Assembly: GCA_019240215.1 (NCBI GenBank)
Contig: JAFAYQ010000063.1
Span: 62,001-126,000 of the forward strand
Direction of reading: 5' to 3'
DNA from: Actinomycetota bacterium
GTDB lineage: Bacteria; Actinomycetota; Actinomycetes; Streptosporangiales; Streptosporangiaceae
DNA length: 64,000 nt
The notes beneath the pieces were generated by a model that ran no database searches, was not told the origin of the DNA, and was given only the letters and a program-made list of their open reading frames with translations. Positions within the stretch are counted from its first letter, which is position 1. The number at the start of each line of letters is the position of its first letter. Below, piece after piece: positions 1,442 to 20,104 of the stretch. The translations under genes and the position numbers were made by a program.

Positions 1442-2047
1442 GTGGAGCCAGTCGCGCCGGTGCCGGCCGTCGGCGAGGCCCGGCCGCCGGCCACGGTGAC
1501 GCTGCGGCCGCTGTTCACCTACCTGATCATCTTCGACGCGCTGCTCGGCTTCCTGACCTGGATGTTCCTGTTCCTGATCCTCAACCTGAGCGGGGCCCCC
1601 AAGGGCTGGCAGCTGATCGGCCTGCCGGCCGGAGTGGTGGCCGGAGTCTGGTTCTGGTGGCGGAACGCGATCGAGTTCACCGATCGGGACATGGCGGTGA
1701 CGATGTTCTTCCGGCCGCACCGGGTGCCCTGGTCCCGGGTGGCGGGCGTGTCGTTTTCTGACATCACCGACGACGATAACGAGGTGACCGGCCGTCGTCT
1801 CACCGTCCGCTACCACCGGGCAGCCGAGCCGCCGTCCGAGCCGATGCCGGCCGTCTTCGGCCAATGGCGGGAGTGGAACCGGCGGCACTTCCGCAGCCTG
1901 ACCCTGCCGGTGCAGTTCCCGCCCAGCCTGACCGAGATCGGCTACGTCCCGCGCGCGCCGCGGACCTGGCACGGCCGCCACGGCCACGCCCAGCGGGCCG
2001 TCATCCTGGCCGAGTTCGCCGCCCGCGGCTACCCGCTCCCGGAGTGA
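1442..2047 (+). CDS. Membrane protein with PH-like domain
   Basis: A 201-residue protein. Residues about 22-40 (TYLIIFDALLGFLTWMFLFL) and about 55-72 (LIGLPAGVVAGVWFWW) form two transmembrane helices. A short beta-rich domain follows (IEFTDRDMAVTMFFRPHRVPWSRVAGVSF), which matches the general pattern of bacterial PH domains of the Bac_PH/DUF2581-like type, where a PWSxV turn is typical. The cytoplasmic C-terminal part is basic. Role unknown; such proteins are common in Actinobacteria. The GTG start has no ribosome site but a -10 element just upstream. The 3' end overlaps the convergent LacI gene by 19 bases. Confidence 0.7.
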   Translation: MEPVAPVPAVGEARPPATVTLRPLFTYLIIFDALLGFLTWMFLFLILNLSGAPKGWQLIGLPAGVVAGVWFWWRNAIEFTDRDMAVTMFFRPHRVPWSRVAGVSFSDITDDDNEVTGRRLTVRYHRAAEPPSEPMPAVFGQWREWNRRHFRSLTLPVQFPPSLTEIGYVPRAPRTWHGRHGHAQRAVILAEFAARGYPLPE

Positions 2048-3123
2048 CCGCCTGCCCTGGTCGATTCGCGGACGACCAGGCGGGCGGGGACCGTCCGCAG
2101 GCCGCGGACGGTCTCCCCGCCGATGGCGGCCAGCAGGTGCTGGCCGGCCAGGCGGCCGATCTGCTCCAGGCAGACGTCGACGGTGGTGAGCGGCGGGTCG
2201 GCCCCCAGCGCCATCGGGGCCCAGTTGTCGAAGCCGGCCAGTGCCACGTCGTCGGGGATCCGGCGGCCGAGGGCGCGCAGGCCGTCGCCCACGCCACGGG
2301 CGATCTGGTCGCTGCCGCAGAACACGGCGTCGGTGTCCGGGCTGGTGTCGAGCAGGATCCGGGCGGCCTCGCGACCCCAGCGTTCGCTCCACTCGCCGTA
2401 CAGCACGTCAGCCAGCGCGAACGGGACCCCGGCGTCCGTTAGCCGGTGGCTGAGGCCGGTGGCCCGCTTGCGGGCGGCCAGGAACCGCTCGGGGCCGGTG
2501 ATGTGGCCGATACGGCGGCGGCCGATGTCCAGCAGGTGCTGGGCGGCGGTGGCGCCGCCGCCCTCGTCGTCGGGCAGGATGGCCGGGTCGTCGCCCTCCA
2601 GCGGCTGGGTCATCGCGTAGACGACCGGGAACCGGCGGCCGACGTCGACGGCCGGCCGGGGCTCGATCCGGCGGCCGGTCACGATCAGGCCGTCCACCCG
2701 CCGGCTGATCAGCCGGTCCAGGTAGCGCTGCTCACGGTCGGGGTCGTCCCGGGTGTCGCACATGAACACCGAGATCTGGCCGGCCCCGAGCGCGTCCTCG
2801 GCCCCGAGCATGACCGGGATGCTGAACCGCCCGAAGCTGTCGGTGGTGAGCAGGCCGACCGTGTAGGTCCGGCCGCCCAGCAGGCCCTGGGCCAGCACGT
2901 TGGGGGCGAAGCCGAGCCGCTGCGCCGCCTCGGTGACCCGGCGCCGGGTCTCCGGCCGCAGCCGGCCCTGGCCGTTCAGCGCCTTCGACGCTGTGCCAAC
3001 TGACACATTTGCGGCGGCCGCGACGTCCCGGATCGTCACGGCCCGCGGTTCAGGCCCATCTGGCAAGGGTTTTCCCCCGTTCAGCGGCGGTTCCAGCCCG
3101 CTCCTCGAAGCAGAAAAGTGCAC
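2029..3123 (-). CDS. LacI-family transcriptional regulator of the arabinofuranosidase operon
   Basis: About 364 residues: LacI-type helix-turn-helix (TIRDVAAAANVSVGTASKALNG, then the hinge region RLGFAPNVLAQGL) followed by a periplasmic-binding-protein-like sensor domain (VGLLTTDSFGRF through RLVVREST). It contains the canonical motifs DGLIVTG, RRIGHITGP, DAVFCGSDQIARG and IPDDVALAGFDNW. The gene is divergent from the GH127 operon and shares a short control region with it, so it probably represses that operon and responds to an imported sugar or its breakdown product. The start is uncertain: the GTG at 3123 lacks a good ribosome site, while an in-frame TTG about 28 codons later has GGGGGA in front of it. 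Confidence 0.9.
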   Translation of the reverse strand: MHFSASRSGLEPPLNGGKPLPDGPEPRAVTIRDVAAAANVSVGTASKALNGQGRLRPETRRRVTEAAQRLGFAPNVLAQGLLGGRTYTVGLLTTDSFGRFSIPVMLGAEDALGAGQISVFMCDTRDDPDREQRYLDRLISRRVDGLIVTGRRIEPRPAVDVGRRFPVVYAMTQPLEGDDPAILPDDEGGGATAAQHLLDIGRRRIGHITGPERFLAARKRATGLSHRLTDAGVPFALADVLYGEWSERWGREAARILLDTSPDTDAVFCGSDQIARGVGDGLRALGRRIPDDVALAGFDNWAPMALGADPPLTTVDVCLEQIGRLAGQHLLAAIGGETVRGLRTVPARLVVRESTRAGGHSGSG

Positions 3124-3133: not shown

Positions 3134-3162
3134 TTGACGCTGGATAATCGCCGCTCTAATCT
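3134..3162 (+). promoter_or_regulatory. Sigma70-type promoter of the GH127 operon
   Basis: TTGACG (3134-3139), a 17-bp spacer and TAATCT (3157-3162) form a near-consensus vegetative promoter reading into the GH127 gene. It decides the gene start: the longest open frame would begin inside the -35 hexamer, so translation must start further down, at 3239. A direct repeat ACTTGA overlaps the -35 box (spaced 10 bp) and may be part of a regulator site. Confidence 0.65.
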
Positions 3163-3178
3163 GGCGCGGAAAACCTAT

Positions 3179-3186
3179 TCCTTAAG
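3179..3186. promoter_or_regulatory. CCTTAAGG palindrome, candidate operator
   Basis: An 8-bp perfect palindrome about 10-17 bp downstream of the predicted transcription start of the GH127 operon. The position suits a roadblock operator for the divergent LacI protein. The site is short and lacks the central CG usual for LacI-family operators, so this is only a candidate. Confidence 0.25.
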
Positions 3187-3238
3187 GTATGGGCCCTGTC
3201 AAGCAGCAGCTGAGCTCAGGACACATCGGAGTGACTAC

Positions 3239-5389
3239 GTGACATCTCTGGACACCCCACCGCGGCCCGAAGACGCGGACGCGGGACGGCTGGGCGCCGG
3301 TCCCGCGATCCCCACCACCCGGGCGCTGGCCGCGCAGCGGCCGCTCTCCCGGCCTGGCACCCACCTGACCCGCGGCCTGCTGCACGATTGGCAGGAGCGG
3401 AACCGGGCGGCCAGCCTGCCGCTGGCCCTGCGCCAGCTGGTGGCCGCGGGCAACCTGGACAACCTGCGGCTGGCCATCCAGGTCGCGGGGGGCGAGGTGC
3501 CCAGCGCCGCGCCCGCGGACGTCCCGGACCTCCCGGGCGCGGCCGACGTCGGCGACGTCACCGACGAGACCGACGAGCCGGACGTGGCCCAGCACGCGAG
3601 CCGGAGCGTCCCGGGCACGGACACCGCGGCCAGCCGCGGCTACCGGGGGCCGGTGTTCATGGACTCCGACATCTACAAGACGCTGGAGGCGATCGGCTGG
3701 GAGCTGGCCCGCACCGCCGGCGGGGCCGAGGACAACGGCGAGCTGACCGGGTTCACCGACCAGACCGTGGACCTGCTCGAGCGGGCCCAGGCGGCGGACG
3801 GCTACCTGGACTCCTACATCCAGGTCAGCGAGGCGCCGCGATGGGAGGGCCTGGCCTGGAGCCACGAGATGTACTGCGCCGGCCACCTCATCCAGGCCGC
3901 GGTGGCGCTGGCCCGCAGCGCCGACGGCACCCCGGTCGCCACCCGGCTGCTGGCGGTCGCCCGGCGGGTGGCCGACCGGCTGGTCGGCACGTTCGGCGGC
4001 GGCGAGATCGGGCTGGACGGGCACCCCGAGATCGAGACCGCCCTGGCCGAGCTCTACCGCGAAACCGGCCACCGCCCCTACCTGGAGCTGGCCAAGCAGT
4101 TCGTCGACCAGCGCGGGCACGGGCTGGCGGGCGACCACCACGGCCACGGCCAGCGCTACCTGCAGGACCGGCTGCCGATCCGGGACACCGTCACCCTCGA
4201 GGGGCACGCCGTCCGGGCCATGTACCTGGACGCGGGCGTGGTCGACGTGGCGGTCGAGACCGGCGACCAGCAGCTGCTGGACTCGTCGATCGCCCGCTGG
4301 GAGGACATGGTCGCGGCCAAGACCTACCTGACCGGCGGCAACGGCTCACGGCACTCGCAGGAGGCGTTCGGCGACCGGTTCGAGCTGCCGCCCGACCGGG
4401 CCTACAACGAGACCTGCGCCGCCATCGCCAACTTCCACTGGTCCTGGCGGCTGCTGCTGGCCACCGGCGACGCCCGCTACGCCGACCTGATGGAACGACT
4501 GCTGTACAACGCCTTCGGCGCCTCGATCTCCACCGACGGGCAGCGGTTCTTCTACGTCAACCCGCTGCAGCGCCGCTACGACCACGTCGAGGGCGACGAC
4601 CCCGGTCGCCGGCACGAGTGGTTCACCTGCGCCTGCTGCCCGCCCAACATCATGCGGCTGCTCGCGTCGCTGCAGTTCTACCTGGCCAGCACGGCCGGTG
4701 ACACCCTTTACCTGCATCAGTTCACCGGCGCGAGCGTGCAGGTGCCGATGACCGGCGGCACCCTGAAGCTGACCGTGACCGCCGAACTGCCCTGGTCCGG
4801 CCGGGTCGGCATCCGGGTCGACGAGGCCCCGGACGGCGCCTGTGGCCTGGGCCTGCGGATCCCCGGCTGGAGCGCCGCCACCGAGGTCACGGTGAACGGC
4901 GAGCCGGTCGAGGCCCGTCCCGACGACCACGGCTACCTGGTCATCAACCGGGCCTGGCGGCCGGGCGACGAGGTCGTCGCCGAGTTCGCGGTGACCGCCC
5001 GCTGGGTGTACCCCGACCTGGTCCTCGACGCCGTCCGCGGCTGCGCGGCGGTCGAGCGCGGGCCGCTGATCTACTGCTTCGAGCAGGCCGACCAGCCCGC
5101 CGGGGCCGACCTGCCCCAGCTCACGATCCCCGGCGCCCCGCCGCTACACGAGCGCCGGGCCGACCTGCCCGGCATCGGCGCCACCGTGGTGCTCGACACC
5201 GACGCCGTGCAGCGCACCACCAGTGCTCCGGGGAGCTGGCCCTACCGGGCCAACCCCGCTGACGCCGGCGACGGCCAGCACATCACCGCCACCGCCGTCC
5301 CCTACTTCCAGTGGGACAACCGGGACGGACGGCCGATGCGGGTCTGGCTGCCGCAGGTCCCAACCACGACCAACCAGCCCTCTCAATGA
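3239..5389 (+). CDS. GH127 beta-L-arabinofuranosidase
   Basis: A 716-residue cytoplasmic glycoside hydrolase predicted to remove non-reducing terminal beta-L-arabinofuranose. The GTG start at 3239 is used because GGAG lies 7 nt upstream and the promoter sits over the longer frame. The N-terminal two thirds form the (alpha/alpha)6 barrel (DSDIYKTLEAIGWEL, GHRPYLELAKQFVD, TYLTGGNGSRH); beta-sandwich domains follow. In HypBA1, the family reference, Zn is held by Glu338, Cys340, Cys417 and Cys418. The equivalents are visible here as E391 and C393 in NETCAA, and C466/C467 in FTCACCPPN. A GH146-like specificity cannot be excluded. There is no signal peptide, so it acts on imported oligosaccharides. 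First gene of a seven-gene operon. The first 60 residues contain an unusual acidic D/E/T-rich insertion (VGDVTDETDEPDV). Confidence 0.9.
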   Translation: MTSLDTPPRPEDADAGRLGAGPAIPTTRALAAQRPLSRPGTHLTRGLLHDWQERNRAASLPLALRQLVAAGNLDNLRLAIQVAGGEVPSAAPADVPDLPGAADVGDVTDETDEPDVAQHASRSVPGTDTAASRGYRGPVFMDSDIYKTLEAIGWELARTAGGAEDNGELTGFTDQTVDLLERAQAADGYLDSYIQVSEAPRWEGLAWSHEMYCAGHLIQAAVALARSADGTPVATRLLAVARRVADRLVGTFGGGEIGLDGHPEIETALAELYRETGHRPYLELAKQFVDQRGHGLAGDHHGHGQRYLQDRLPIRDTVTLEGHAVRAMYLDAGVVDVAVETGDQQLLDSSIARWEDMVAAKTYLTGGNGSRHSQEAFGDRFELPPDRAYNETCAAIANFHWSWRLLLATGDARYADLMERLLYNAFGASISTDGQRFFYVNPLQRRYDHVEGDDPGRRHEWFTCACCPPNIMRLLASLQFYLASTAGDTLYLHQFTGASVQVPMTGGTLKLTVTAELPWSGRVGIRVDEAPDGACGLGLRIPGWSAATEVTVNGEPVEARPDDHGYLVINRAWRPGDEVVAEFAVTARWVYPDLVLDAVRGCAAVERGPLIYCFEQADQPAGADLPQLTIPGAPPLHERRADLPGIGATVVLDTDAVQRTTSAPGSWPYRANPADAGDGQHITATAVPYFQWDNRDGRPMRVWLPQVPTTTNQPSQ

Positions 5390-5403
5390 GGAGATCAGTT
5401 CTT

Positions 5404-6741
5404 ATGAAGCGCACCTCTGTCCGGCGCGCGATGGCGGTCACGGCCATCGCGGCCGCGGCCGCCACCGCGGCGGCCTGCGGCAACGGCGGCGGCAGCACGA
5501 GCGCCAGCTCGGGCTCCACCTCCGGCTCGAGTTCCTCGGGCGGCACCACCACGATCAACTTCTGGGTGCGGGTCGACAACCCCAGTGTCGGCCTGGCCAA
5601 GCAGTTCAACGCGACCCACAAGAACATCCACGTCAACACCACCGTGGTCCCCGACGCCGAGTACGTGACGAAGATGGCGGCCGCGGTGCGCGGGCACAGC
5701 GGGCCTGATGTGGCCGACTTCGACGACATCAACACCCCGCTGTTCGCGGCCACCGGCATCACCGAGAACGTCAGCTCCTACCTGAACACGCTGTCGTTCA
5801 AGAGCTCGCTCAACCAGGCCGAGATGGGCCTGGCCAGCTACAAGGGCGGCTACTACGGCGTCCCCTACATCAACGGCTCGTCGGTCATGATGTACAACAA
5901 GGGCCTGTTCAAGAAGGCGGGCCTGAACCCGAACCAGCCGCCGACCACCTGGGCGCAGATCCTCACCGACGCCAAGAAGATCTCCGCGCTCGGCAACGGC
6001 GTGGCCGGCTTCACCATCCCCGGCGCCTGCGGCGGCTGCACCGTCTACACGGTCTGGCCGCTGATCTGGGCCTCCGGCGGCCAGGTGATGTCGGCCTTCG
6101 GCGCCAACCAGACCACCACGTTCAGCACGTCCCCGCAGGTGACGGCCGCGCTGAAGTTCTACCGGGAGCTATGGACTTCGGGCACGGTGGCGTCCAAGGA
6201 CCGCTCGGAGAACGGCACCACCTGGGGCCAGGCGTTCATGGCGGGCAAGACCGGCATCCTGCTCGGCACCCCGGTCGACATCCCCACCGCCACCAAGAAC
6301 GGCGTGGACGTGGGCGTGGCCCCGATCCCCGGCGAGAACGGCGGCTACTCGACCTTCGTCGGCGGTGACGAGCTGGGCATCATCAACGGCTCCAAGAACG
6401 TGGCGGCCGACGAGACGTTCATCACCTGGATGCTGGGGGTCAAGCAGCAGGAGTACGTGGCCAACCCCTGGTACCTGGTGCCGGTCCGCCAGGACATGCT
6501 CACCTCGAGCTTCGCCAGCAAGTACCCGATCGCGGCGGTCGGCCTCAAGGCGTCGGAGCAGGGCCAGGTGCCCAAGAGCATCGGCTTCACCGCCGCCACC
6601 GAGGACGCCAACGCGCCCTGGGTCACCGCGTTCGAGCAGGTCGTGTTCTCCGGGGCCGACCCGGCGACCGCGCTCAAGACGGCCGACACCAACGCCAAGC
6701 AGATCCTCGCCCAGCAGTACCAGCAGCAGGTCGGTGGCTAG
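5404..6741 (+). CDS. Sugar ABC transporter substrate-binding lipoprotein
   Basis: A 445-residue family 1 extracellular solute-binding protein. The ATG at 5404 is preceded by GAGGAG. The signal peptide MKRTSVRRAMAV ends in a lipobox (TAAACGNGG), and a Gly/Ser-rich tether (STSASSGSTSGSSSSGG) follows. Binding-protein motifs include NFWVRVDNP at the N-terminus, GVPYINGSSVMMYNKGLFKKAG, the TTWAQILTDAKK stretch and FMAGKTGILLG. An internal pair of cysteines (ACGGCTV) may form a disulfide. It sits between GH127 and the two permease genes, so it should bind an arabinose-containing oligosaccharide at the outer face of the membrane. Confidence 0.9.
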   Translation: MKRTSVRRAMAVTAIAAAAATAAACGNGGGSTSASSGSTSGSSSSGGTTTINFWVRVDNPSVGLAKQFNATHKNIHVNTTVVPDAEYVTKMAAAVRGHSGPDVADFDDINTPLFAATGITENVSSYLNTLSFKSSLNQAEMGLASYKGGYYGVPYINGSSVMMYNKGLFKKAGLNPNQPPTTWAQILTDAKKISALGNGVAGFTIPGACGGCTVYTVWPLIWASGGQVMSAFGANQTTTFSTSPQVTAALKFYRELWTSGTVASKDRSENGTTWGQAFMAGKTGILLGTPVDIPTATKNGVDVGVAPIPGENGGYSTFVGGDELGIINGSKNVAADETFITWMLGVKQQEYVANPWYLVPVRQDMLTSSFASKYPIAAVGLKASEQGQVPKSIGFTAATEDANAPWVTAFEQVVFSGADPATALKTADTNAKQILAQQYQQQVGG

Positions 6742-6744
6742 ACG

Positions 6745-7812
6745 GTGAGCCGCAAGCCCCTTCCGGCTGACGCTCGTGACCGCGTGGCATCCTCCGGGGT
6801 GCCCGCGGTCGCGGGCGCCGGCCCCGTCCCGGCCGGCCCTGTCCCGGCCGGCCCTGTCCCGGCCGGCGGCCCCTCCGGGACCGGCACCGCCGGGGCCGGC
6901 CGCCAGCCCGCACCCCGCCGGCCCGGCCGCAACCCGCTGGCCCGCAGCCGGGCCCGGGCCGGGTTCCTGATGTCACTGCCGGCCCTGGTCCTGGTGGCCG
7001 TGTTCTTCGTGCTGCCGCTGATCCTGGTGGCCTGGATGTCGCTGAACAACTGGCCGCTGATCGGGCGGGCGACGTTCATCGGGGTCCAGAACTACTCCAG
7101 CCTGGCCCACGACAAGATCTTCGGTCACGCGCTGTGGTTCACGGCCGAGTACACGGTGATCGTGACCCCGATCCAGATCGTCCTGGGCTACCTGCTGGCG
7201 GTCATGGTCCGCCGCAAGCTGCGCGGGGTCGGCTTCTTCCGGACCGTGTACTTCATGCCGGTCGTCACCGGCTTCGCCGCCACCGCCTACGTCTTCCTGG
7301 TCATGCTGACCCCCGGCGTCGGCGTGGTGAACACCGTGCTGGAGTCGCTCGGCCTCAGCAACGGCCAGACCAACTGGCTGACCAGCCCGGGGCTGGCCCT
7401 GGTGGTGGCCGTCATCCTGATCACCTGGAAGACGATCGGCATCGCGATGATCTTGTTCATGGCGGCCATGCAGGCAGTGCCGGAAGAGCTGTACGAGGCG
7501 GCCAAGGTCGACGGGGCGGGCTGGTGGCGCCGCGAATCGCGGATCACGGTCCCGCTGATCCGCCGGACCACCGCGCTGGTCCTGGTGCTCACCGTGGCCG
7601 GGTCGTTCCTGGCCTTCGACCAGTTCTTCATCCTGACCCAGGGCGGCCCCAACAACGAGACGCTGACCGCCGTGCTGTGGATCTACACCACCGCGTTCGT
7701 GCAGTACCGGACCGGCTACGCCGGCGCGCTGTCGATCGTGCTGCTGGTGCTGCTGATCCTGCTGAGCGTGGCCCAGATCCGGACGCTCCGGCGCGGAGAC
7801 GAGGGGAGTTAG
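6745..7812 (+). CDS. Sugar ABC transporter permease (MalF/UgpA type)
   Basis: A 355-residue inner-membrane permease with about six transmembrane helices. The loop that contacts the ATPase carries the EAA-like sequence EELYEAAKVDGAGWWRRESRITVP near residue 250. The first 70 residues are an unusual cytoplasmic, Pro/Ala/Gly-rich extension caused partly by a short DNA repeat. The gene starts with GTG 3 nt after the binding-protein stop. No ATPase gene is present in the operon; actinobacterial sugar importers of this class usually share the MsiK ATPase encoded elsewhere, which I infer here as well. Confidence 0.9.
   Translation: MSRKPLPADARDRVASSGVPAVAGAGPVPAGPVPAGPVPAGGPSGTGTAGAGRQPAPRRPGRNPLARSRARAGFLMSLPALVLVAVFFVLPLILVAWMSLNNWPLIGRATFIGVQNYSSLAHDKIFGHALWFTAEYTVIVTPIQIVLGYLLAVMVRRKLRGVGFFRTVYFMPVVTGFAATAYVFLVMLTPGVGVVNTVLESLGLSNGQTNWLTSPGLALVVAVILITWKTIGIAMILFMAAMQAVPEELYEAAKVDGAGWWRRESRITVPLIRRTTALVLVLTVAGSFLAFDQFFILTQGGPNNETLTAVLWIYTTAFVQYRTGYAGALSIVLLVLLILLSVAQIRTLRRGDEGS
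6826..6866 (+). repeat. 15-bp tandem repeat inside the permease gene
   Basis: The unit GTCCCGGCCGGCCCT occurs 2.7 times head to tail and encodes PAGPV repeats in the cytoplasmic N-terminal extension of the permease. Copy number may vary between strains, since the repeat length keeps the frame. Confidence 0.7.
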
Positions 7813-7813
7813 C

Positions 7814-8722
7814 ATGGCCACCCAATCGGCCGCCCCGGTCGCCTTCCCGGCTACCGCGGGCACGGCGGCCGGGGCGGCGCCCGGCCGGGTCCTGCGCCGG
7901 GTCAGCCACGTGCTGTACTACGTCGTCGCGATCGTCGCGGCCCTGCTGTTCCTGTTCCCGATGGTCTGGGCGCTGATCCGGTCGCTGCAGGGCAGCGTGG
8001 CCGACAACTCGGCGCCGACCCTCGGCTCGCTGGTCCACCTGACCCTGCACAACTACGGCAACCTGGTCAGCACCGGCACCAGCGTGTGGACCAACGCCGG
8101 CAACAGCCTGATCGTCGCGGTGGTGACCGCGATCCTGACCGCGGTGGTCGCCACCCTGGCCGGGTACGGGCTGTCCCGGCTGAAGTTCCCGGGCGCCGGC
8201 ATCGCGTTCGTGATCATCCTGGCCCCATTCATGGTGCCGTTCCAGGCCATGCTGACGTCCTTGTTCACGGTGCTGACGTGGCTGCACCTGACCAACAACC
8301 TGGTCGGGCTGATCCTCGTCTATACGACGTTCCAGCTGCCGTTCGCGACCTACATCATGCGCAACAGCTTCTCCACCATCCCCACCGAGGTGGAGGAGGC
8401 GGCCCTGATCGACGGGGCCTCGCATCTGGGCGTGCTCCGGCGGGTGATGGTGCCGCTGGTCCGGCCGGGCATCGTCACCGTCGTGCTGTTCGCGTTCTTC
8501 TTCGCCTGGAACGAGTTCCTGGCGGCGCTGATGCTGCTCACCACCAACGCGCGGATGACGCTGCCGGTGGCGCTGAACAACCTCGCCTCGGGCGCCTACG
8601 GGCAGGTTGACTTCGGCAAGCTCGACGCCGGCGCGGTCATCGCGATGGCCCCGTGTGTGGTGGTGTTCCTGATCCTGCAGCGTTACTACGTCAACGGCAT
8701 CACCGCCGGGGCGGGGAAGTAG
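7814..8722 (+). CDS. Sugar ABC transporter permease (MalG/UgpE type)
   Basis: A 302-residue partner permease with six predicted membrane spans, starting FLFPMVWALIRSLQG. The typical MalG EAA loop is present (EVEEAALIDGASHLGVLRRVMVPLVRPG, around residues 194-218), followed by FAFFFAWNEFLAALML, a family hallmark. The ATG is preceded by GAGGGGAG and lies 1 nt after the stop of the upstream permease gene. It forms a heterodimeric channel with that protein. Confidence 0.9.
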   Translation: MATQSAAPVAFPATAGTAAGAAPGRVLRRVSHVLYYVVAIVAALLFLFPMVWALIRSLQGSVADNSAPTLGSLVHLTLHNYGNLVSTGTSVWTNAGNSLIVAVVTAILTAVVATLAGYGLSRLKFPGAGIAFVIILAPFMVPFQAMLTSLFTVLTWLHLTNNLVGLILVYTTFQLPFATYIMRNSFSTIPTEVEEAALIDGASHLGVLRRVMVPLVRPGIVTVVLFAFFFAWNEFLAALMLLTTNARMTLPVALNNLASGAYGQVDFGKLDAGAVIAMAPCVVVFLILQRYYVNGITAGAGK

Positions 8723-8725
8723 CCG

Positions 8726-11251
8726 ATGACTGAACTGACCCTGACCGAGCTGGACAGCGGGAGCCTGGCGGCCGGGATCGACCCCGACCGCGGCGTGCTG
8801 CGGTCCGTGCGCGACACCGACGGCCCGCCCGGCCTGGACTATCTCGGCGGCCCGGCCCCGTTCCCCTCCGACCTCGGCACCGAGGAACTGTGGACCGGTG
8901 ACCTGGTGCTGCGGGTGTGGGACGGGCACGGCTGGCGGCTGGAGTCGACCGCCCGCTCGGCCGACATCCGCGCGGTCAGCCGGACCCCCGACGGCCGCAC
9001 CCAGATCAGCTACCTGGGCGAGTCGTCGGCCCCGGGCGGCCTGCGCGGGCTGGACGTCCGGCAGTGGCTGCAGCCCGGGCCGCAGGTCCTGCGCTGGACG
9101 ATCGAGATCACCAACCGGACCGCCGAGCGGGTCGAGGTCGGCGAGGTCGCGGTGCCGCTGGTGGCCAACACCGACCTGGCCGGCATCTTCGGCGGGCTGC
9201 CGCCGGCCGGGCGGGCCGGCGGTGAGCCCCAGCGGCGCTGGCACGAGGACCGGGTCCAGCAGTTCCTGCACGTGGGCGGGCACGGCTCCTACGTGCTGCT
9301 GCAGCGCCCGGCGGGCGACGGGCGGATCCTGGCCGTGGTGCCGAGCGGGGACACCGCGGTCGAGGCCGCCTACCAGATCGACCCGGGCCAGGGTAACCAG
9401 TGGAGCAACGTCTTCGAGGGCCCGTACTTCCTCGGGCTGCGGACCCGGGCCGCCCGGGCGGTGCACGGCTGGCTCGCCAACCGGGAGAAGCAGAACTACT
9501 ACCTGCACGGGCACACCTCGCTGGTGCTGGCGCCGGGTGCGGCGCAGACGTTCGGGTTCGAGCTGGCCCTGCTGGACGACGCCGACGGCTTGCCGGCGCG
9601 GCTGGTGGAGGCCGGCCAGATCGCGGTCGATGCGGCGCCCGGCTACACCGTCCCGCTCGGCCAGCGCATCACGGTCGCGGTCAGCTGCACCCACCCGCCC
9701 CGGCTGACGTCGGAGTCGGCCAAGGTGACGATCACCCCGCTGGCCGCCCCGGCCGGGACCGGCGACGCCCGGGTCCACCGGTACGCGCTGGACTTCGGGT
9801 CGACCGGGCAGAAGGCGGTCAAGGTCAGCTACGGCGACGGCCGCTGGACCCGGCTGCTCTGCTACGTCACCCCGCCCGCGGCCGACCTGCTGCGCGACCG
9901 GGCCGCGTTCATCGCCGGTGAGCAGCTGTACGACAACCCGGACGACCGGTTCGGGCGGCACCACGCCTTCCTGCCCTACGACGACCAGCTCCAGCAGGTC
10001 TACACCGACAGCGAGGAATGCTGGCAGGTCGGCGGGTCGGACGAATACGGGCTGCCGGTCGCGATGTTCCTGGCCGAGAAGAACGCGCGCCAGCCGGAGC
10101 CGGACGAGATCGCGGCGCTGGAGACCTACATCGACGACTGGCTGCTGGGCACCCTGCAGGACCCGGCCACGCTCGAGGTCCGGCGTGGCCTGTACTTCCG
10201 GGAGCCGGAGCTGCCGTCCCGCGACGGCCACGAGTGGACGGAGGCCGAAAGCCGCGACACCCAGCGGTTCAACAACTACCCGCTGGTCGCGAACATCTAC
10301 CACGCCATGTACCGGGTGGCCCGCGACCACTCGGCCACCCGCGCCCACTCGGCCGCCGGCTACCTGACGCTGGCCTGGCGGACCGCGGTTCTCGGGTTCG
10401 GGCGGGGCCTGCTGGTGGGGGCGGGTGCCCCGGCCGGAGCCGGTCTCTACAGCCTGCTGGAAGACCTGGCCGGCGCCGACCCGGACGGCTACGTGGCGCT
10501 CGACGCTCACCTGCGGGCGTTCGCCGACCTGGCCGCCCGCGACCCCTACCCGTACGGGTCGGAGCTGTACGTCGACCAGACCGCCCACAGCCAGGTCTAC
10601 CTGGCCCTGGACCGGTACGGGCCGGAGGCGCCGCTGGACCGGTGCATCCGGGTCACCCGGGCCATGCGCTGGGGCTTCCAGCCGTCCTGGTTCCGGTACG
10701 GCAACGAGCAGCGCGGCTCGGTCTGCTGCTGGTACGGCACCCCGCAGAACTCGGAGATCCTGCTCCGGGCCTACCGCCGGACCGGCGACCCGCGGCTGGT
10801 CAAGCTGGCCACGGCCGGCCTGGCCAGCTTCCTGACCTCGGTCCGGGCCAGCGGCGCGGCCCGCGGCTGGTTCACCTGGTGGCCGGACCGGACCGGGTTC
10901 GACTCCCGCTCGCTCGACACCGACCTCGGCTTGTACGGCTACCTGCGGGCGGCCGCCGCCTACGTGCTGACCGAGCCGACGTTCGGGCTGACCGGCTATA
11001 TGTGCGCGGCCCGGCCGGGGCCGGACGGGTCGATCGAGGTCGAGCCGGCCAACGGCGTCGACGACACCATCCACTTCTGCGACCACGACCTGTCGGTCTA
11101 CGCCACCGCCCCGATCCGGCGGGCCCGCTTCCACCCGGCCGGCCGGGTGCTGGAGCTGGAGGTCGCGCCGTCCCGGCACAGCGGGCAGCAGCCCGCCGCC
11201 CGGCTCGAGGGCGCCCCGGCCGAGCTGCGGCTGCAGGTACTGGCGGAGTGA
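8726..11251 (+). CDS. Large putative glycosidase resembling DUF5695 proteins
   Basis: An 841-residue protein without signal peptide. The N-terminal half (to about residue 330) is beta-rich, like the super-sandwich domains of glycoside hydrolases. The second half is helical with paired aromatic/acidic motifs (DDRFGRHHAFLPYDDQ, VGGSDEYGLPVAMFLAEKN, RFNNYPLVANIYHAMYRVA, WFRYGNEQRGSVCCWYG), typical of an (alpha/alpha)6 toroid. From memory these motifs resemble the DUF5695 family; I could not verify this. Candidate catalytic acids lie in DSEECW and GGSDEYG. Fourth structural gene after the transporter genes, so it likely processes the same imported glycan. The ATG follows GGGGAAG. Confidence 0.6.
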   Translation: MTELTLTELDSGSLAAGIDPDRGVLRSVRDTDGPPGLDYLGGPAPFPSDLGTEELWTGDLVLRVWDGHGWRLESTARSADIRAVSRTPDGRTQISYLGESSAPGGLRGLDVRQWLQPGPQVLRWTIEITNRTAERVEVGEVAVPLVANTDLAGIFGGLPPAGRAGGEPQRRWHEDRVQQFLHVGGHGSYVLLQRPAGDGRILAVVPSGDTAVEAAYQIDPGQGNQWSNVFEGPYFLGLRTRAARAVHGWLANREKQNYYLHGHTSLVLAPGAAQTFGFELALLDDADGLPARLVEAGQIAVDAAPGYTVPLGQRITVAVSCTHPPRLTSESAKVTITPLAAPAGTGDARVHRYALDFGSTGQKAVKVSYGDGRWTRLLCYVTPPAADLLRDRAAFIAGEQLYDNPDDRFGRHHAFLPYDDQLQQVYTDSEECWQVGGSDEYGLPVAMFLAEKNARQPEPDEIAALETYIDDWLLGTLQDPATLEVRRGLYFREPELPSRDGHEWTEAESRDTQRFNNYPLVANIYHAMYRVARDHSATRAHSAAGYLTLAWRTAVLGFGRGLLVGAGAPAGAGLYSLLEDLAGADPDGYVALDAHLRAFADLAARDPYPYGSELYVDQTAHSQVYLALDRYGPEAPLDRCIRVTRAMRWGFQPSWFRYGNEQRGSVCCWYGTPQNSEILLRAYRRTGDPRLVKLATAGLASFLTSVRASGAARGWFTWWPDRTGFDSRSLDTDLGLYGYLRAAAAYVLTEPTFGLTGYMCAARPGPDGSIEVEPANGVDDTIHFCDHDLSVYATAPIRRARFHPAGRVLELEVAPSRHSGQQPAARLEGAPAELRLQVLAE

Positions 11252-13443
11252 CCGCCGGTCCAGTCGTCCTCCGGTCGGGTGACGGGAGCGAGCTGCGGGC
11301 CGGCCCCGATGGGCTGACGCTGACCCGGGACGGTGTGGCGGTCCTGCGCAGTCCCCGGCCGGCCCGGATCGCGCTGTGGCCGGCCCCGGATGGCGGCGGT
11401 GAGCTGGCGGCCGGCTACGACCAGGTCCAGCTGCGGTCCAACCGGCTGACCGGCCGGGCGGTGCTACGGGCGGCCGGGGCCCGGTTCGAGATCGACGACG
11501 TGTTCAGCTGGGCCGGGGCCGGCCTGCAGCTGCAGCGTCAGGTCCGGGTCCGGCTCGATGATCATTTTGAAAGGGCGCCGACGGGGTTCGCGTCCTGGTT
11601 CGGCTGGGCGCTGACGGCGGCGGCGCCCCGGTGGCTGCTACCCGGTGCCGTCTACGACCGGAACGAGTACGCCCCCGCCTACGCGATCGGCGCGAACCTG
11701 GCCGGCGCCGGAGGTGGCGGGCCGGGCGCCGAACCGGTGCTGGTCCGGGAAGACCGGCTGGCGCTGCCCTTCGCAGCTGCCTACGACTCCAACGCCAGAT
11801 TGGCCTTTTATCTGAATAATGAACGCCCCCACGGGGGGACCGTCACCGCCGACGACCTGGCCCCGGCCGTGATTTCCGACCGGCTCCGGTTCGGCTCGTT
11901 CGGCGACCTGAGCGCGGGTGAGCTCGGCTACTGCTACCCGGGCACCGAGGGAACGGTCAGCTACCCGCCGATGTGGACCACCGGCATCGGCAACGCCCAG
12001 GCCGACTCCCCGGTCAACCCGTTCCCCGACCTCGGCGACCACCCGGAGCTGACCGGGCCGCGGGCGGGCACACCCGCCGAAGCGGCCGGCGGTCCCTGGC
12101 GGGGCGCGGGCTGGGCCCGCCGCTACCACCCGGTGGCCGACGGCGCCGGCCACGGCTACACCCTGCTCACGGTGACCACCCCGGCCGCCTCGTTCCCGGA
12201 GTTCGTGCGCCGGGTCTGGCGGTTCGGCTGGCAGCGGCACCGGCCGGCCGTCCGCCGCGTGGACCTGGCCGCGGTCGAACGGGTCAGCCTGGACCTGCTG
12301 GCCGCCGCGGTCGTCACCGACGGCACCGAGGACGCGCCGATCGGCGTCCCGACCTGGATCGACGTGTTCACCGGGCGGCCCGGGCACCTCCAGGACACGC
12401 TGAGCGTGGGCTTCGTGGGGCGCAACCTGGAGGTCGCGGCCACGCTGCTGCGGGCGGCGGCCCGGCACCGGCGGCCGGACTGGGAACGGCTGGCGGCCAC
12501 CATGATCGATTCCTGGCTGGCCGCCGCCGGGGGCGACGAAGGCCTCTGCCACACCGAGTGGGACCGGTCCCGGCGGGGCTGGGTGGACAGCGGCCAGCCG
12601 GGGGTGGTCTACCTGCGGGACCAGTCCGAGGCCCGGACCGCGGTGCTGGCGGTGGCGGCCGGCCGTCCGTCGCCGCGCTGGCTGGACTGGTGCCGGGCCT
12701 ACGCCCGCTGGCTGGCCGACCACGTCAGCCCGGACGGCTCGGTGGGCCGGTCCTATTACCTGGACGGGCGGCCGGCCGACCCGTCGGTCAACGACGGCAT
12801 CCACACCGCCGCCTTCCTGGCCCGGCTGGCGGCCGTCACCGGTGACCCCGCCCCGGTCGAGCTGGCCGAGCGGATCGCCGGATACTACTGGGACACGTTC
12901 CACGCGGGCGGGGTGTTCGCCGGCGGCACGCTAGACAACCCCAACTGCTGCGACCGCGAGGCAGCCACCCTCGCCCTCGACGCCTACCTGGCGGTGCACG
13001 CGGCCACCGGCGACCCCCGCTGGCTGGCGGCGGCCCAGCTGGCGGCCGACTTCTGCGAGACCTGGATCGTCGGCTGGGACGTGCCGATGGCGGCCGTGGA
13101 CGCGGTCGGTCAGCCGTTCTTCGACCCGGCCGCCGGGGCGACCGGGCTGGGGCTGATCACGCTGGGCTTCTCGGCGGTCGACACTTACCTGGCCCGGCAC
13201 GTCGGCGACTTTCACCGCCTGGCCGAGCTGACCGGCGACCGCCACTACGCGGACGTGGCGGAGTTGCTGCTGCACAACACCAAGCAGATGGTGCAACTGG
13301 CCGGCGAGTACGGCTACACCAGGCCCGGCGACCAGATCGAGCACTGGTCGATCGGCCGCGGCCGCGGTTACGGGCTCAACTCCGGCTGGCTGCCGTGGGT
13401 GGCCACCGCGCACGTGCTGAGCATCTGGGACGGAGCGAAATGA
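11248..13443 (+). CDS. Uncharacterised six-hairpin-type protein, putative glycosidase
   Basis: A 731-residue protein beginning with a GTG that overlaps the previous stop (GTGA). The N-terminal about 270 residues are beta-rich (LTRDGVAVLRSPRPARIALWP, FEIDDVFSWAGAGL). After residue about 330 helical hairpins follow: SVGFVGRNLEVAATLLRAAARH, WDRSRRGWVDSG, YLDGRPADPSVNDGIH, NPNCCDREAATLALDAYLAVH. This pattern fits an (alpha/alpha)6 barrel of the GH88/GH105/GH127 superfamily, but I recognise no specific family. Several Asp/Glu (WVDSG, VNDGIH, CDREA) could be catalytic. No signal peptide, so the protein is intracellular. Its place in a GH127 operon suggests action on another linkage of the same glycan. 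Confidence 0.55.
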   Translation: MTAGPVVLRSGDGSELRAGPDGLTLTRDGVAVLRSPRPARIALWPAPDGGGELAAGYDQVQLRSNRLTGRAVLRAAGARFEIDDVFSWAGAGLQLQRQVRVRLDDHFERAPTGFASWFGWALTAAAPRWLLPGAVYDRNEYAPAYAIGANLAGAGGGGPGAEPVLVREDRLALPFAAAYDSNARLAFYLNNERPHGGTVTADDLAPAVISDRLRFGSFGDLSAGELGYCYPGTEGTVSYPPMWTTGIGNAQADSPVNPFPDLGDHPELTGPRAGTPAEAAGGPWRGAGWARRYHPVADGAGHGYTLLTVTTPAASFPEFVRRVWRFGWQRHRPAVRRVDLAAVERVSLDLLAAAVVTDGTEDAPIGVPTWIDVFTGRPGHLQDTLSVGFVGRNLEVAATLLRAAARHRRPDWERLAATMIDSWLAAAGGDEGLCHTEWDRSRRGWVDSGQPGVVYLRDQSEARTAVLAVAAGRPSPRWLDWCRAYARWLADHVSPDGSVGRSYYLDGRPADPSVNDGIHTAAFLARLAAVTGDPAPVELAERIAGYYWDTFHAGGVFAGGTLDNPNCCDREAATLALDAYLAVHAATGDPRWLAAAQLAADFCETWIVGWDVPMAAVDAVGQPFFDPAAGATGLGLITLGFSAVDTYLARHVGDFHRLAELTGDRHYADVAELLLHNTKQMVQLAGEYGYTRPGDQIEHWSIGRGRGYGLNSGWLPWVATAHVLSIWDGAK

Positions 13444-15713
13444 CGATGAAGTACCCGGACCCGGCCGGCCTCAAGCTGTACGACCGGGCCGGCCCGTGGA
13501 CGCTGATGGCCAGGACCGAGCTGGACGGCCACGGCCAGGTCGCGGTGCTGGAGGACCTGACCCGCCCGGACGGGCCGATCATGTACCTGGCGGGCGGCGG
13601 ACCGCTGCTAGTGCTGCCGAAGACGCTGGCGGCGACGGCCGAGCCCGCCACCGGCCTCTACCGGGGTCACACCCTGGCCGAGGTGCTCGGCGACGTCGAC
13701 CTGCTGCGCAACGAGTTCCTGGCCGGCGGCCACGAGCCAACCTGGGCGGAGGTCGCGGCCGCGTTCCCGCCGATCCGCCGGGCCGTCGTGGAAACCGGTT
13801 CGGTGCGCAGCAACCCGCACACGTTCGTGGGCACCCCGCAGACCATCGACACGATCCCGGTCTACTACGGCCGCGAGTACGGCCACCGGCTCAACCCGCT
13901 GGCCCTGACCCCGGAGCTGGCGCCCGCCATCGACGGCGAGTACGTGGAGGAGGGCATCGTCGGCGGCTGGCTGCCGGCCGTGCGCACCGTGTACCCGGTC
14001 GCGGCCGGGGTTGGCTGGGACGCCACCCTGTTCGCCGGGGTACATACCCGCAACCTGTTCCAGCAGCCGACCTTCCACCGGTACCTGCGGATCGCCGGCG
14101 GGGCGGTGGACCGGGCGCTGTACTTCAACTCGTACCTGCCGTACCCGCTGGACGGCAATTGCGACGCCGCCCAGTTCTACCGGGAACTGTTCGACCTGCA
14201 CTCTTTCTGGGGAAAGGCGGTCACCGGGCCGGTGCAGACCGCGCTGCCGCTGGCGTGGCTGCCCGATTTCGTCCGGCACGCGTTCGCGCTCGAGGCGATC
14301 ACCCGGGTGGGCGACCACCCGCGCTACGGCACCGTCACCAAGGACTACGGCGGCGGTGAGCACGACGGCTTCCAGGACGTCTTCAACACCAGCGTGAGCT
14401 CGGCGACCGAGTGGGGCCGGTACCAGACAGCACGGTCCGCTATCGACAACTACTTCACCGAGTTCGTCCGCGACGACGGCTCGATCGACTACCGGGGGCC
14501 GGAGATCGGCCAGTACGGCCGGATGCTGAGCACCCTCAGCCAGTACGCCGAATACTCCGGCGACTACGAGGTCTTCGACCGTTACACGGGCAGGATCGCG
14601 GCCATCGTGCAGATCCTCGCCACCCGGCTGGCCACCGCCCGAGCGCGGCCCGCGGCCGACCCGAGCCACGGCCTGATCCGCGGCCGCCAGGAGGCCGACA
14701 CCAGCTTCCTCACCGCCGACGTGGCCGTGCACGACTACGAGCAGCCGTACTGGAACAACAGCGCGCTCAGCTGGCGCGGGTTCCGCGACCTGAGCCGGGT
14801 GTGGCGGCACCTGGGCACCCAGCGAAACGACGCCGGCCTGAGGCGGGCGGCCGACGACCTGGCGGCCAGCGCCAGCCGGCTCCGGCGGGACCTGGACCGG
14901 GCGGTCGAGCGGTCGCTGCGCACCGGCCGTGACCTGTCCTACCTGCCTCCCTACGCCGGGGGCACGAAGTACCACATCGACTCGCCCTACCGCGCCACCC
15001 CCGAATCGTTCGACGACAACCGGGTCTGGACCGAGTTCATGGGCAGCGGGGTGATCGGCCGGCCCACGCTCGACGTCATCGTCGCCTACCAGGCCGCCCA
15101 CCACGGATCGAACCTCGGCATCATGACCAACCGCAAGCACATCGTGGTGTTCCTCGCCCACGGTGCGGGCTACGGGTTCCTCCAGCACGACCTGATCGAG
15201 TCGTTCCTGCTCCTCTACTGGTCGCTGCTCGCGCACGGTTACACCCGCGGGACCTGGACCGCGTTCGAGTGCGTGGACCTGGACCGGCAGCGCGCCGAGC
15301 ACACGCCGTTCGCGGCCGCCGCCCAGCTGGTGGTGGCCCCGCTGACCAAGTGGATGCTGGTGTTCGAGGACCCCGGCGACGACAGCGTCTGGCTGGCCAA
15401 GGCGACGCCGCGGGACTGGCTGGCGGCCGGCCAGCGGATCGAGGCCCGAGGGGTGCCGACCCGCTACGGCACCGTCGGCTACACGATCACCTCCCGGCTG
15501 GACGACCGGCGGGTCGAGGCCGAGGTCGAGGTGGACCCGAACGGGGCCCGTGACCCGTCCGCCTTCCGGCTCCGGCTGCGGACACCCGAGCGGCGGGAGG
15601 TCACCGAGGTCGAGATCGACGGCGCCCGGTGGACCGGTTTCGACGCCGACCGCGAGTACGTCACGCTGCCCGGCTTCGGCGGGACGTACGCCGTCACCGT
15701 CTACTACGCCTGA
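13440..15713 (+). CDS. Uncharacterised large putative glycoside hydrolase, last gene of the operon
   Basis: A 757-residue protein whose ATG overlaps the preceding stop (ATGA) with GGAG upstream. The N-terminal beta-rich part runs to about residue 260. The helical middle contains DYGGGEHDGFQDVFNTS, DDGSIDYRGPEIGQYGRMLS, YWNNSALSWRGFRDLSRVW and SPYRATPESFDDNRVW, with HHGSNLGIMTNRKHIVVFLAHG further on; the end returns to beta strands. The order suggests beta-sandwich, (alpha/alpha)6 barrel, beta-sandwich, as in several glycosidase clans. I do not recognise the family. The absence of a signal peptide, and the operon, point to intracellular glycan breakdown. The 3' end overlaps the convergent GGDEF gene by 10 bases. 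Confidence 0.55.
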   Translation: MTMKYPDPAGLKLYDRAGPWTLMARTELDGHGQVAVLEDLTRPDGPIMYLAGGGPLLVLPKTLAATAEPATGLYRGHTLAEVLGDVDLLRNEFLAGGHEPTWAEVAAAFPPIRRAVVETGSVRSNPHTFVGTPQTIDTIPVYYGREYGHRLNPLALTPELAPAIDGEYVEEGIVGGWLPAVRTVYPVAAGVGWDATLFAGVHTRNLFQQPTFHRYLRIAGGAVDRALYFNSYLPYPLDGNCDAAQFYRELFDLHSFWGKAVTGPVQTALPLAWLPDFVRHAFALEAITRVGDHPRYGTVTKDYGGGEHDGFQDVFNTSVSSATEWGRYQTARSAIDNYFTEFVRDDGSIDYRGPEIGQYGRMLSTLSQYAEYSGDYEVFDRYTGRIAAIVQILATRLATARARPAADPSHGLIRGRQEADTSFLTADVAVHDYEQPYWNNSALSWRGFRDLSRVWRHLGTQRNDAGLRRAADDLAASASRLRRDLDRAVERSLRTGRDLSYLPPYAGGTKYHIDSPYRATPESFDDNRVWTEFMGSGVIGRPTLDVIVAYQAAHHGSNLGIMTNRKHIVVFLAHGAGYGFLQHDLIESFLLLYWSLLAHGYTRGTWTAFECVDLDRQRAEHTPFAAAAQLVVAPLTKWMLVFEDPGDDSVWLAKATPRDWLAAGQRIEARGVPTRYGTVGYTITSRLDDRRVEAEVEVDPNGARDPSAFRLRLRTPERREVTEVEIDGARWTGFDADREYVTLPGFGGTYAVTVYYA

Positions 15714-17137
15714 GAGCCCGGGTCCGGGGCCCGGCCCGGCGATAAGTGGCCGGCGGCCAGCTGCCACTGGCCGCGGCCGCTCGCCTTGGCCGTGTAGAGG
15801 GCCTGGTCGGCGGCGGCCAGGATCGAGTCGGCGCTGTCGTCCGGGCCGGACAGGGCGACCCCGATCGACAGCGACGGCACCACCGGCTCGCCGCCCAGGT
15901 CGACCGGGCGGCGGATCGTCCGCATCACCCGCTCGGCCAGCGCGGTCGCCTTGGTGTTGGTCGGCATCGGGTAGGCGACCAGCACGAACTCGTCGCCGCC
16001 GAACCGGCCGACGATGTCCCGGTGCCGGGCGGTGGAGGCCAGGTTGCGCCCGATCTCGGTCAGCAGCTGGTCGCCGGCCGCGTGCCCGAGGGTGTCGTTG
16101 ATCTCCTTGAAGTGGTCGACGTCGCAGTACAGCACCGCCACCCGGCGCCTGGTCTTCTCCGCGTCCCCCAGCACCTCGGTGAGCCGGTCGAGCACCAGCG
16201 CCCGGTTGGGCAGCCCGGTCAGCTGGTCGTGGGTGGCGGCGTGGGCGAACTGGGCCTGCATGGAGCGCAGCAGCGTGATGTCCTCGATCTGGGTCAGGAT
16301 CAGCCTCGGGCCGGAGCGGACGCCGCCCGTCAGCGACGTGCGGTTGACCCGGCCCCACACCTCGCTGCCGTCGGGCCGGGTGAAGTGCACCTCGTACTGG
16401 TCGCCGTCGCCCTCGGCGGCGTCGGGGGCCAGCTCGGCGGCCGGGCGGCCGACCAGTTCGGGGGCGCCGCGGCCGAGCAGCTGCTCGCAGGCGGCGTTGA
16501 CCCGGGTGACCTCCTGGTCCTCGGTCAGCAGGGCGATCGCGATCGGCGAGCAGTCGAACATCGCCCGGAACAGCTGCTCGGAGTCGGCCACCAGCGTGTG
16601 CTGCCGGGAGTGCTCGATGGCGAGCGCGGCGTGGGCGGCGAACTGTTCCAGCAGCCGCCGCTTGGCCGGCCCCGGCCGCCGCCCGTCGGCCGGGATGTCG
16701 ACGCTGAGGGTGCCGATCAGCGTCTGGTCGGCGGCGTAGAGCGGCGCCAGCAGGATGTCCTCGGGGTGCCAGGCGTCGGGTTCGTCGCCCGGCGGCCCCG
16801 GCGGCGACCAGCCCGCCACCGAGCGCGACAGCCCGTTGTCGTTCCGATGGTCGAGGAAACGGAGTTCGCCCCAGGCCTCACAGCCGGCCAGCAGTCGCCG
16901 GAAGTTCTCCAGTGGCGTCCGGGTGCCGAGCAGCGCCTGCCCGACCTCGTCCGGGCCGGCCACGGCGGCGACCTCGCACATCTCGCCGGGCTGGCACAGG
17001 TTGACCACGGCCGCGCCGAAGCCCAGCTGGTCGACGACCGCCTGGGCCACCACCTGCAGGGTTTCCCGCAGGTCGAGGCTCGCGGTTATGCGCCGGGCCA
17101 ACTGGGCCAGCAGCTCAGCGGCCTGGGTCTCACTCAT
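15704..17137 (-). CDS. GAF-PAS-GGDEF diguanylate cyclase
   Basis: A 477-residue soluble signalling protein that should make cyclic di-GMP from two GTP. A GAF domain spans about residues 10-175, a PAS domain about 185-300 (LFRAMFDCSPIAIALLTEDQEVTRVNAACEQL broken by loops), and the GGDEF domain about 310-465. The catalytic signature is intact at 380-384 (RFGGDEFVLVAY). An inhibitory I-site RxxD is present at 371-374 (RHRD), exactly five residues before GGDEF, so product inhibition is expected. The conserved start DQLTGLPNRAL and the metal-binding CDVDHFKEIND are visible. There is no EAL domain or membrane anchor. It is a single gene, convergent with the glycan operon. Confidence 0.93.
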   Translation of the reverse strand: MSETQAAELLAQLARRITASLDLRETLQVVAQAVVDQLGFGAAVVNLCQPGEMCEVAAVAGPDEVGQALLGTRTPLENFRRLLAGCEAWGELRFLDHRNDNGLSRSVAGWSPPGPPGDEPDAWHPEDILLAPLYAADQTLIGTLSVDIPADGRRPGPAKRRLLEQFAAHAALAIEHSRQHTLVADSEQLFRAMFDCSPIAIALLTEDQEVTRVNAACEQLLGRGAPELVGRPAAELAPDAAEGDGDQYEVHFTRPDGSEVWGRVNRTSLTGGVRSGPRLILTQIEDITLLRSMQAQFAHAATHDQLTGLPNRALVLDRLTEVLGDAEKTRRRVAVLYCDVDHFKEINDTLGHAAGDQLLTEIGRNLASTARHRDIVGRFGGDEFVLVAYPMPTNTKATALAERVMRTIRRPVDLGGEPVVPSLSIGVALSGPDDSADSILAAADQALYTAKASGRGQWQLAAGHLSPGRAPDPGSQA

Positions 17138-19152: not shown

Positions 19153-19333
19153 CGGCTGTCCTCGCTTCTGATCCGCGGCCGCCGGTTACGGGCCCGAACT
19201 TGGCGTGAAGCTAACTACGGCCGTCAGCGGCCCGGAAGCCGCCAATTGCGGATAGCTGGCATACCGGCCGGTGATTTCCGGGCCCGAACGGGCGCTGTTA
19301 GCGTTCGACCGACGCGCGAAGGGAGATCTCCCG

Positions 19334-20104
19334 ATGGGCAACCTCGACGGCAAGGTGGCGCTGATCAGCGGGACCGGCCGGGGGATGGGCCGGGCGGCGG
19401 CGCTGGAATTCGCGGCCCAGGGCGCGGCCGTGTTCGGCTGTGACCTGAACGAGGCCGACAGCGCCGAGACCGTCGCCCTGGTGACCAAGGCGGGCGGGGT
19501 GATGGAGGCGCTGGCCCCGGTTGACCTGGGCACCCGCGACGGCGCCGAGGCCTGGGTCCGGGCCGCGGTGGACCGGTTCGGCGGCGTCGACGTGCTCTAC
19601 AACAACGCCTCGGCCCTCCGCAACGGGCCGCTGATGGACCTGGCCGACGAGGACTGGCACTTCACGATCAGGAACGAGCTCGACCTGGTCTGGTACTCGG
19701 TCCGGGCGGCCTGGCCGGAGCTGGTCGGCCGGGGCGGTGGCGCCGTCATCAACGTGGCCTCGATCGCCGCCCGGCTCGGGGCCCGGTTCGTGGGCCAGGT
19801 CCCGCACGGGTCGGCCAAGGGCGGGGTGCTGGCCATGACCAAGCACCTGTGCGCGACCGGCGGTCCGCACCGGATCCGGGCCAACGCGATCCTGCCCGGC
19901 CTGATCTACACCCCGGAGACCGCCCCGTTCATCGACGACCCGGACGGCCCGCTGCCCGGCATCCTGGCCAAGATCCCGCTCGGCCGCTACGGCCAGGCGC
20001 ACGAGGTCGCCCAGCTGGCCGCGTTCCTGGCCAGCGACGCGGCCGCCTTCATCACCGGCGCCGAGATCGCGATCGACGGCGGCGACGGCGCGGTGGCGGC
20101 CTGA
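19334..20104 (+). CDS. SDR-family oxidoreductase with His in place of the catalytic Tyr
   Basis: A 256-residue Rossmann-fold protein of the classical SDR type: cofactor motif SGTGRGMGR near residue 12, NNAS near 88 (instead of NNAG), catalytic Ser in NVASIAARLG, and the lysine of YxxxK. The tyrosine position is His (VPHGSAK). I recall relatives with HGxAK in actinobacterial catabolic clusters, so this may be a functional subfamily rather than a defect. The acidic residue after strand 2 (GCDLNEAD) suggests NAD(H). The ATG has AGGGAGA upstream, and a TAGCGT element lies about 30 nt before it. It is followed 1 nt later by an FAH-family gene, suggesting joint action in degradation of a ring-derived acid. 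Confidence 0.85.
   Translation: MGNLDGKVALISGTGRGMGRAAALEFAAQGAAVFGCDLNEADSAETVALVTKAGGVMEALAPVDLGTRDGAEAWVRAAVDRFGGVDVLYNNASALRNGPLMDLADEDWHFTIRNELDLVWYSVRAAWPELVGRGGGAVINVASIAARLGARFVGQVPHGSAKGGVLAMTKHLCATGGPHRIRANAILPGLIYTPETAPFIDDPDGPLPGILAKIPLGRYGQAHEVAQLAAFLASDAAAFITGAEIAIDGGDGAVAA

Follow-up and report, generated by a model that had tools for sequence, protein, structure and literature searches.

Background

In the HypBA cluster of Bifidobacterium longum, beta-Ara2 from hydroxyproline-rich glycoproteins is taken up by an ABC transporter and cleaved inside the cell by GH127 (PMC7263609). The arabinose chain is split in the known systems by GH121, which occurs mainly in bifidobacteria and Xanthomonas (PMC7263609). 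Outside these two groups, the breakdown of extensin-type glycans is poorly known. We analysed a stretch of 64,000 nucleotides of actinomycetotal DNA (hereafter the window, by which positions are numbered) from an assembly that is 67% complete. One of its operons encodes a GH127 enzyme, an ABC importer and three large proteins, here called P1, P2 and P3.

Organization of the operon

Seven genes lie on the forward strand in the order GH127, solute-binding protein, two permeases, P1, P2 and P3, with a divergent LacI-family regulator upstream of GH127 (2029-3123, reverse strand; Pfam LacI and Peripla_BP_3). The GH127 beta-L-arabinofuranosidase-type enzyme (3239-5389; PF07944, E 6e-80) is followed by a lipoprotein-type sugar-binding protein (SBP) of an ABC importer (5386-6741; SBP_bac_1, E 1e-36), ABC sugar permease 1 (6745-7812; BPD_transp_1, E 8e-18) and permease 2 (7814-8722; BPD_transp_1, E 8e-21), the 841-aa DUF5695 protein P1 (8726-11251; PF18951, E 4e-70), the approximately 731-aa P2 with a GTG start (11248-13443) and the 757-aa P3 with an ATG start (13440-15713). 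A second possible start of GH127 lies upstream, at an in-frame TTG (3134).

Four-base overlaps join GH127 to the SBP (ATG at 5386, stop at 5389), P1 to P2 (GTG at 11248, stop at 11251) and P2 to P3 (ATG at 13440, stop at 13443), and the remaining intergenic gaps measure 1-3 bases. Because of this spacing, we read the genes as a single translationally coupled operon. An antisense frame of 1183 aa overlaps P1; as the GC content of the window is very high and produces long frames by chance, homology is what shows the genes to be real, and homologs were found elsewhere for every gene of the operon, P1, P2 and P3 included. Gene order, close spacing and these homologies confirm the GH127 utilisation operon with three large proteins that the initial annotation had described. 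No signal peptide was seen in GH127, P1, P2 or P3. The clear promoter reported in the same annotation did not hold up: a promoter scan returned no sigma-70-like site, and the hexamer that could pair with a TTGACG at 3134 is weak. An imperfect palindrome of 12 nt at 3174-3193 is a possible operator.

The GH127 enzyme and the importer

The GH127 protein scored 269.6 bits against the catalytic domain family PF07944 (cut-off 24.9). Its closest solved structure was 4qjy (E 6e-112; 573 residues aligned), and the alignment takes in the QEAF region and the ETC...CACCPPN motif. The Glu/Cys/Cys/Cys zinc site noted previously is intact, with E391, C393, C466 and C467 invariant in the eight relatives gathered, and the CxCC motif is present. 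The score against the NCBIfam aceric acid hydrolase family was far under its cut-off (367 vs 950). The enzyme is assigned by sequence to the GH127 beta-L-arabinofuranosidase type, and its activity is predicted from the family.

The SBP_bac_1 protein and the two BPD_transp_1 permeases make up the oligosaccharide importer that had been recognised before; a Pfam scan found no gene for its ATPase in the operon. The best plasmid match of the SBP adjoins a P2 homolog in Deinococcus. A bare core of GH127, SBP, two permeases and LacI is present in Curtobacterium.

P1 is related to polysaccharide lyase family 27

P1 matched DUF5695 (PF18951) over residues 56-823 with 237 bits, against a gathering cut-off of 25.2. 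A P1 profile built with 11 relatives aligned with the PL27 enzyme BACCELL_00875 (5no8) in three colinear pieces (E 6e-17), and a Foldseek search with the P1 model placed 5no8 first (E 1e-22; TM 0.64 by target length). The model is poor (mean pLDDT 64) and counts here only insofar as it agrees with what the sequences show; the fold alignment has 17% identity. Taken together, profile and model identify P1 as a PL27-related beta-sandwich plus (alpha/alpha)6 protein, with homology to PL27 along the whole chain. By beta-elimination, PL27 enzymes take L-rhamnose caps off the glucuronic acid of gum arabic, and BACCELL_00875 is reported to be an L-Rha-alpha-1,4-GlcA lyase (PMC8377490).

An R-[YH]-W-D ... 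HY block, which takes the form RHWD...HY in 5no8 and RYWD...HHYG in most of the other DUF5695 proteins collected, is absent from P1, which reads RYGNEQRGSVCCWYG at that place. A subgroup of P1 relatives about 32% identical to it (L076, L078 and L083) likewise lacks the RYWD...HHYG block. The block is defined by being shared between 5no8 and most of the DUF5695 proteins collected. As it is missing, we call P1 PL27-related and do not file it as PL27; instead of a new hydrolase, it may represent an enzyme of lyase type or lyase descent. A GH127-like zinc-cysteine site in P1 (EEC at 430-432 and CC at 667-668) was considered and rejected, since the closest relatives keep only C668-W and neither C432 nor C667. 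Closer relatives of P1 directly adjoin GH127 (L093 and L094).

A possible toroid relationship of P2 to GH127 and GH76

P2 had no match above the curated cut-offs of Pfam or NCBIfam. By hhalign, its profile matched the GH127 toroid (probability 95%, E 4e-8), and it also matched the hairpins of GH76 mannanases (E 2e-7); the GH76, LanC and GH127 matches cover part of the toroid. These profile comparisons point to P2 as a distant (alpha/alpha) toroid relative of GH127 and GH76. No cysteine is among its invariant residues.

A full-length homolog in Deinococcus is about 33% identical to P2 and adjoins an importer 39-51% identical to that of the window. Single genomes of Planctomycetota, Acidobacteriia and Clostridiales also have a relative, and Bacteroides and a further genome from the phylum of the window hold more distant ones. 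Only three of the P3-bearing genomes searched also contain P2 (G247, G268 and G280), and all three belong to the window's branch of the P3 tree described below. A search of viral contigs for P2 gave nothing. At one Acidobacteriia locus (L073, 8218-11562), a P2 relative and an M24 peptidase-type domain are fused in one frame.

P3 has a predicted six-hairpin fold

P3 likewise had no match above the curated cut-offs of Pfam or NCBIfam, and no sequence relatives were detected in the PDB. Among 42 members of the P3 family, the only Pfam matches were to Tat signals. The AlphaFold model (pLDDT 88.8, pTM 0.93) has a beta-sandwich at the N-terminus, followed by an (alpha/alpha)6 barrel and, at the C-terminus, a beta domain. 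With this model, Foldseek returned 35 PDB matches at E<=0.001, which place the predicted structure in the six-hairpin fold. The top matches were Aspergillus niger Rha-2, 2rdy, HypBA1, GH94 and MmpH, the first of them with whole-chain TM of about 0.4-0.46; the best neighbour, Rha-2, is an alpha-L-rhamnosidase entry. The six-hairpin pattern initially suggested for the three proteins is seen as a predicted fold in P3 and as a fold match to 5no8 in P1; for P2, profile matches over part of the toroid hint at it. Structure searching led from P3 to six-hairpin glycosidases, as expected, and from P1 to PL27 instead, the latter with a model of mean pLDDT 64.

Seven acidic residues are invariant in the barrel region of P3 (D309, D313, D375, E418, D420, E532 and E610). 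No cysteine or histidine is invariant in the family, which thus gives no indication of a cysteine mechanism like that of GH127. The carboxylates E418, D420 and E610, joined in the P3 family by D309/D313, resemble the acid/base set of a hydrolase and may be catalytic. A sister group of about 850-890 aa in Acidobacteriota (L097 6987-9587, L098 5954-8500, L101 7208-9892 and L102 4366-7005) keeps E418, D420 and E610, not D309/D313; its L097 member has no Pfam or NCBIfam match.

P2 and P3 are likely to be new enzyme families in a known kind of locus, set apart by Pfam, NCBIfam and the PDB, with CAZy outside the comparison. The initial annotation had listed all three large proteins as unassigned and as possible new glycoside hydrolase families. 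Within the same databases, the first statement holds for P2 and P3 and not for P1, a DUF5695 protein homologous to PL27; the second may hold for P2 and P3. In the literature searched, no study dealt with the function of DUF5695 or with the P3 family; this is weak evidence of absence, as subscription papers were mostly outside its reach.

Distribution and neighbourhoods of P3

In one scan of GTDB contigs, P3 relatives were found at 44 loci in at least six phyla, with about 29-40% identity. Weak matches in other genomes of the window's phylum were set aside, three being a gene beside recG and one lying over an FAD-oxidase gene. Within about 10 kb of P3, DUF5695 occurs at 11 loci and GH127-type genes at many. 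At a Clostridiales locus (L053; Bacillota, MAG), the order is LacI, SBP, permease, permease, P3, DUF5695, GH127. The linkage of P3, DUF5695 and GH127 is thus a recurrent one.

A proline racemase family gene was counted in 34 P3 genomes, and in 19 of them it lies no more than 30 kb from P3; the probability of this by chance is about 2e-24 under a simple binomial model that ignores shared ancestry. P3 neighbourhoods of this hydroxyproline type also hold DHDPS-family and FAD oxidoreductase genes, DUF885 and an amino-acid permease. The P3 tree has two deep branches, each with 100/100 support. The first (39 rows) is mostly Tat-exported and contains the hydroxyproline-linked loci, so that the Tat-exported branch is strongly tied to hydroxyproline-catabolism genes. 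The second comprises eight members, including the window, with Bacillota, Planctomycetota, Verrucomicrobiota, Gemmatimonadota and Acidobacteriota represented; hydroxyproline genes were seen near P3 at none of the eight. Long branches join the P3 of the window to that of L053, and the copies with no evident signal are these two and L021. In the host genome, of which the assembly covers 67%, a search for a proline racemase family gene gave no match.

These neighbourhoods point to the glycans of hydroxyproline-rich glycoproteins. As the window P3 lies on the other branch, we only infer a substrate of the hydroxyproline type for the window operon. The arabinofuranose-containing plant glycan proposed initially is sharpened to this extent, by relatives from a branch other than the window's.

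Proposed function and alternatives

For the window organism we infer the substrate, and for each enzyme the bond cleaved, as follows. Under LacI control, the catabolic operon would import, through its ABC transporter, a small plant glycan or glycopeptide with beta-L-arabinofuranose, probably from extensin or an arabinogalactan protein. Cytoplasmic GH127 would cleave off the beta-L-Araf units, the activity of its family, and P1, P2 and P3 would act as (alpha/alpha)6-type enzymes on the remaining linkages in a stepwise cytoplasmic trimming, P1 as a PL27-related DUF5695 protein, P2 as a GH127/GH76-like toroid and P3 as a member of an undescribed family. Small substrates that have already been set free would suit both the exported copies of Gram-negatives and the signal-less copies next to ABC importers. 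We give about an even chance to the reading that the operon imports and trims a beta-L-Araf plant glycan or glycopeptide, probably from hydroxyproline-rich glycoproteins. A bolder proposal, which we hold tentatively and consider somewhat unlikely, is that P3 represents a new family of glycoside hydrolases, present in at least six phyla besides the window's, that frees a glycan from hydroxyproline-rich plant glycoproteins so that the peptide hydroxyproline can be eaten, and that P2 is a second new family for the same substrate in ABC-importing bacteria.

Against the hydroxyproline reading, relatives of GH127 occur in pectin loci too, and the operon might degrade a pectic glycan (an arabinan tip, rhamnogalacturonan I or II), in which P1 would cut at rhamnose or uronic acid residues, whether as a lyase or as a hydrolase. 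Among plasmid sequences, the nearest GH127 relatives are from Streptomyces, in a locus that also holds GH28, pectinesterase and GH95; a DUF5695 gene adjoins rhamnogalacturonan lyase genes on one Sphingomonas plasmid; and the Bacteroides relative of P2 sits with GH2, GH88 and GH43. However, that Sphingomonas locus also has DPP IV and DUF885, and the recurrent partners found for P3 are DUF885, an M24-type peptidase, an amino-acid permease and GH127, in a survey where pectinases were not systematically sought. We judge a pectic substrate unlikely.

P1 could instead be an active L-rhamnose-alpha-1,4-D-glucuronate lyase with the function of PL27, in an operon that eats Rha-capped arabinogalactan side chains. 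The full-length homology and fold match to a reported lyase (PMC8377490) would suit this, and arabinogalactan proteins also carry beta-L-Araf (PMC10850190). Such a function has little probability in our view, since P1 reads RYGNEQRGSVCCWYG in place of the shared block, its subgroup lacks the block and identity in the fold alignment is just 17%. Improbable as well is a role in the use of a small plant glycoside with L-arabinose (a saponin, flavonoid or similar), where the extra toroids would be exo-enzymes that trim glycosides and have nothing to do with wall glycoproteins. In its favour, no export signal was seen in any of the four enzymes, and the P3 model finds its closest fold match in an alpha-L-rhamnosidase entry, an activity common in glycoside trimming; but the Tat branch of P3 is linked to hydroxyproline genes, and GH127-ABC-LacI cores match known import systems for beta-arabinooligosaccharides.

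Other genes of the window

A GAF-PAS-GGDEF diguanylate cyclase on the reverse strand (15704-17137) overlaps the end of P3 by 10 bases. Beyond it lies a protein of 628 aa (17266-19152) that matches a Tat signal weakly and in which no domain passes the Pfam cut-off. Genes for an SDR, two FAH-family hydrolases, glyoxalase-superfamily and FAD-binding proteins, an amidohydrolase and an HpcH aldolase (19271-21080, 27559-29581 and 34387-42135) look like a separate region for the degradation of aromatic compounds at 19-42 kb, outside the operon. The window also encodes an IS110-type transposase (22743-24116; DEDD_Tnp_IS110 and Transposase_20), a single protein that combines a TerC membrane protein with several EF-hand repeats (49556-51091) and a 548-aa SIR2-like domain protein (56653-58296). 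SIR2-like domains are known from anti-phage defence.

Comparison with known systems

The P3 family, found with GH127, DUF5695 and, on one branch, hydroxyproline genes in soil Acidobacteriota and Pseudomonadota, is a candidate for a missing step in extensin-type glycan breakdown, and the operon is a promising place to look for new plant-glycan enzymes. Like hypBA1-hypBA2-hypAA of B. longum (BLLJ_0208-0213; PMC7263609), it encodes side by side an ABC sugar importer and a GH127 that works inside the cell. Unlike that system, it has DUF5695, P2 and P3 and no GH43-like gene. In Xanthomonas euvesicatoria, the Araf-Hyp of hydroxyproline-rich glycoproteins is a substrate of the GH127 in the XeHypBA1/BA2/AA set (XCV2724, 2728 and 2729; PMC6085000). 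N-terminal signal peptides are present in XCV2724 and XCV2728, but none was seen in the enzymes of the window operon. P3 relatives were also found in other Xanthomonas.

At the level of single proteins, the first gene of the operon is a GH127 (PF07944) with its key residues present. P2 appears to be a distant toroid relative of it and, like P3, differs from GH127 in having no invariant cysteine. P1 shares colinear homology and fold with the PL27 enzyme BACCELL_00875 (5no8), but at low identity and with the shared block missing. The predicted fold of P3 is like that of GH78, GH95, GH94 and similar six-hairpin enzymes, yet there is no detectable sequence similarity to them, and the best whole-chain TM is about 0.4-0.46.
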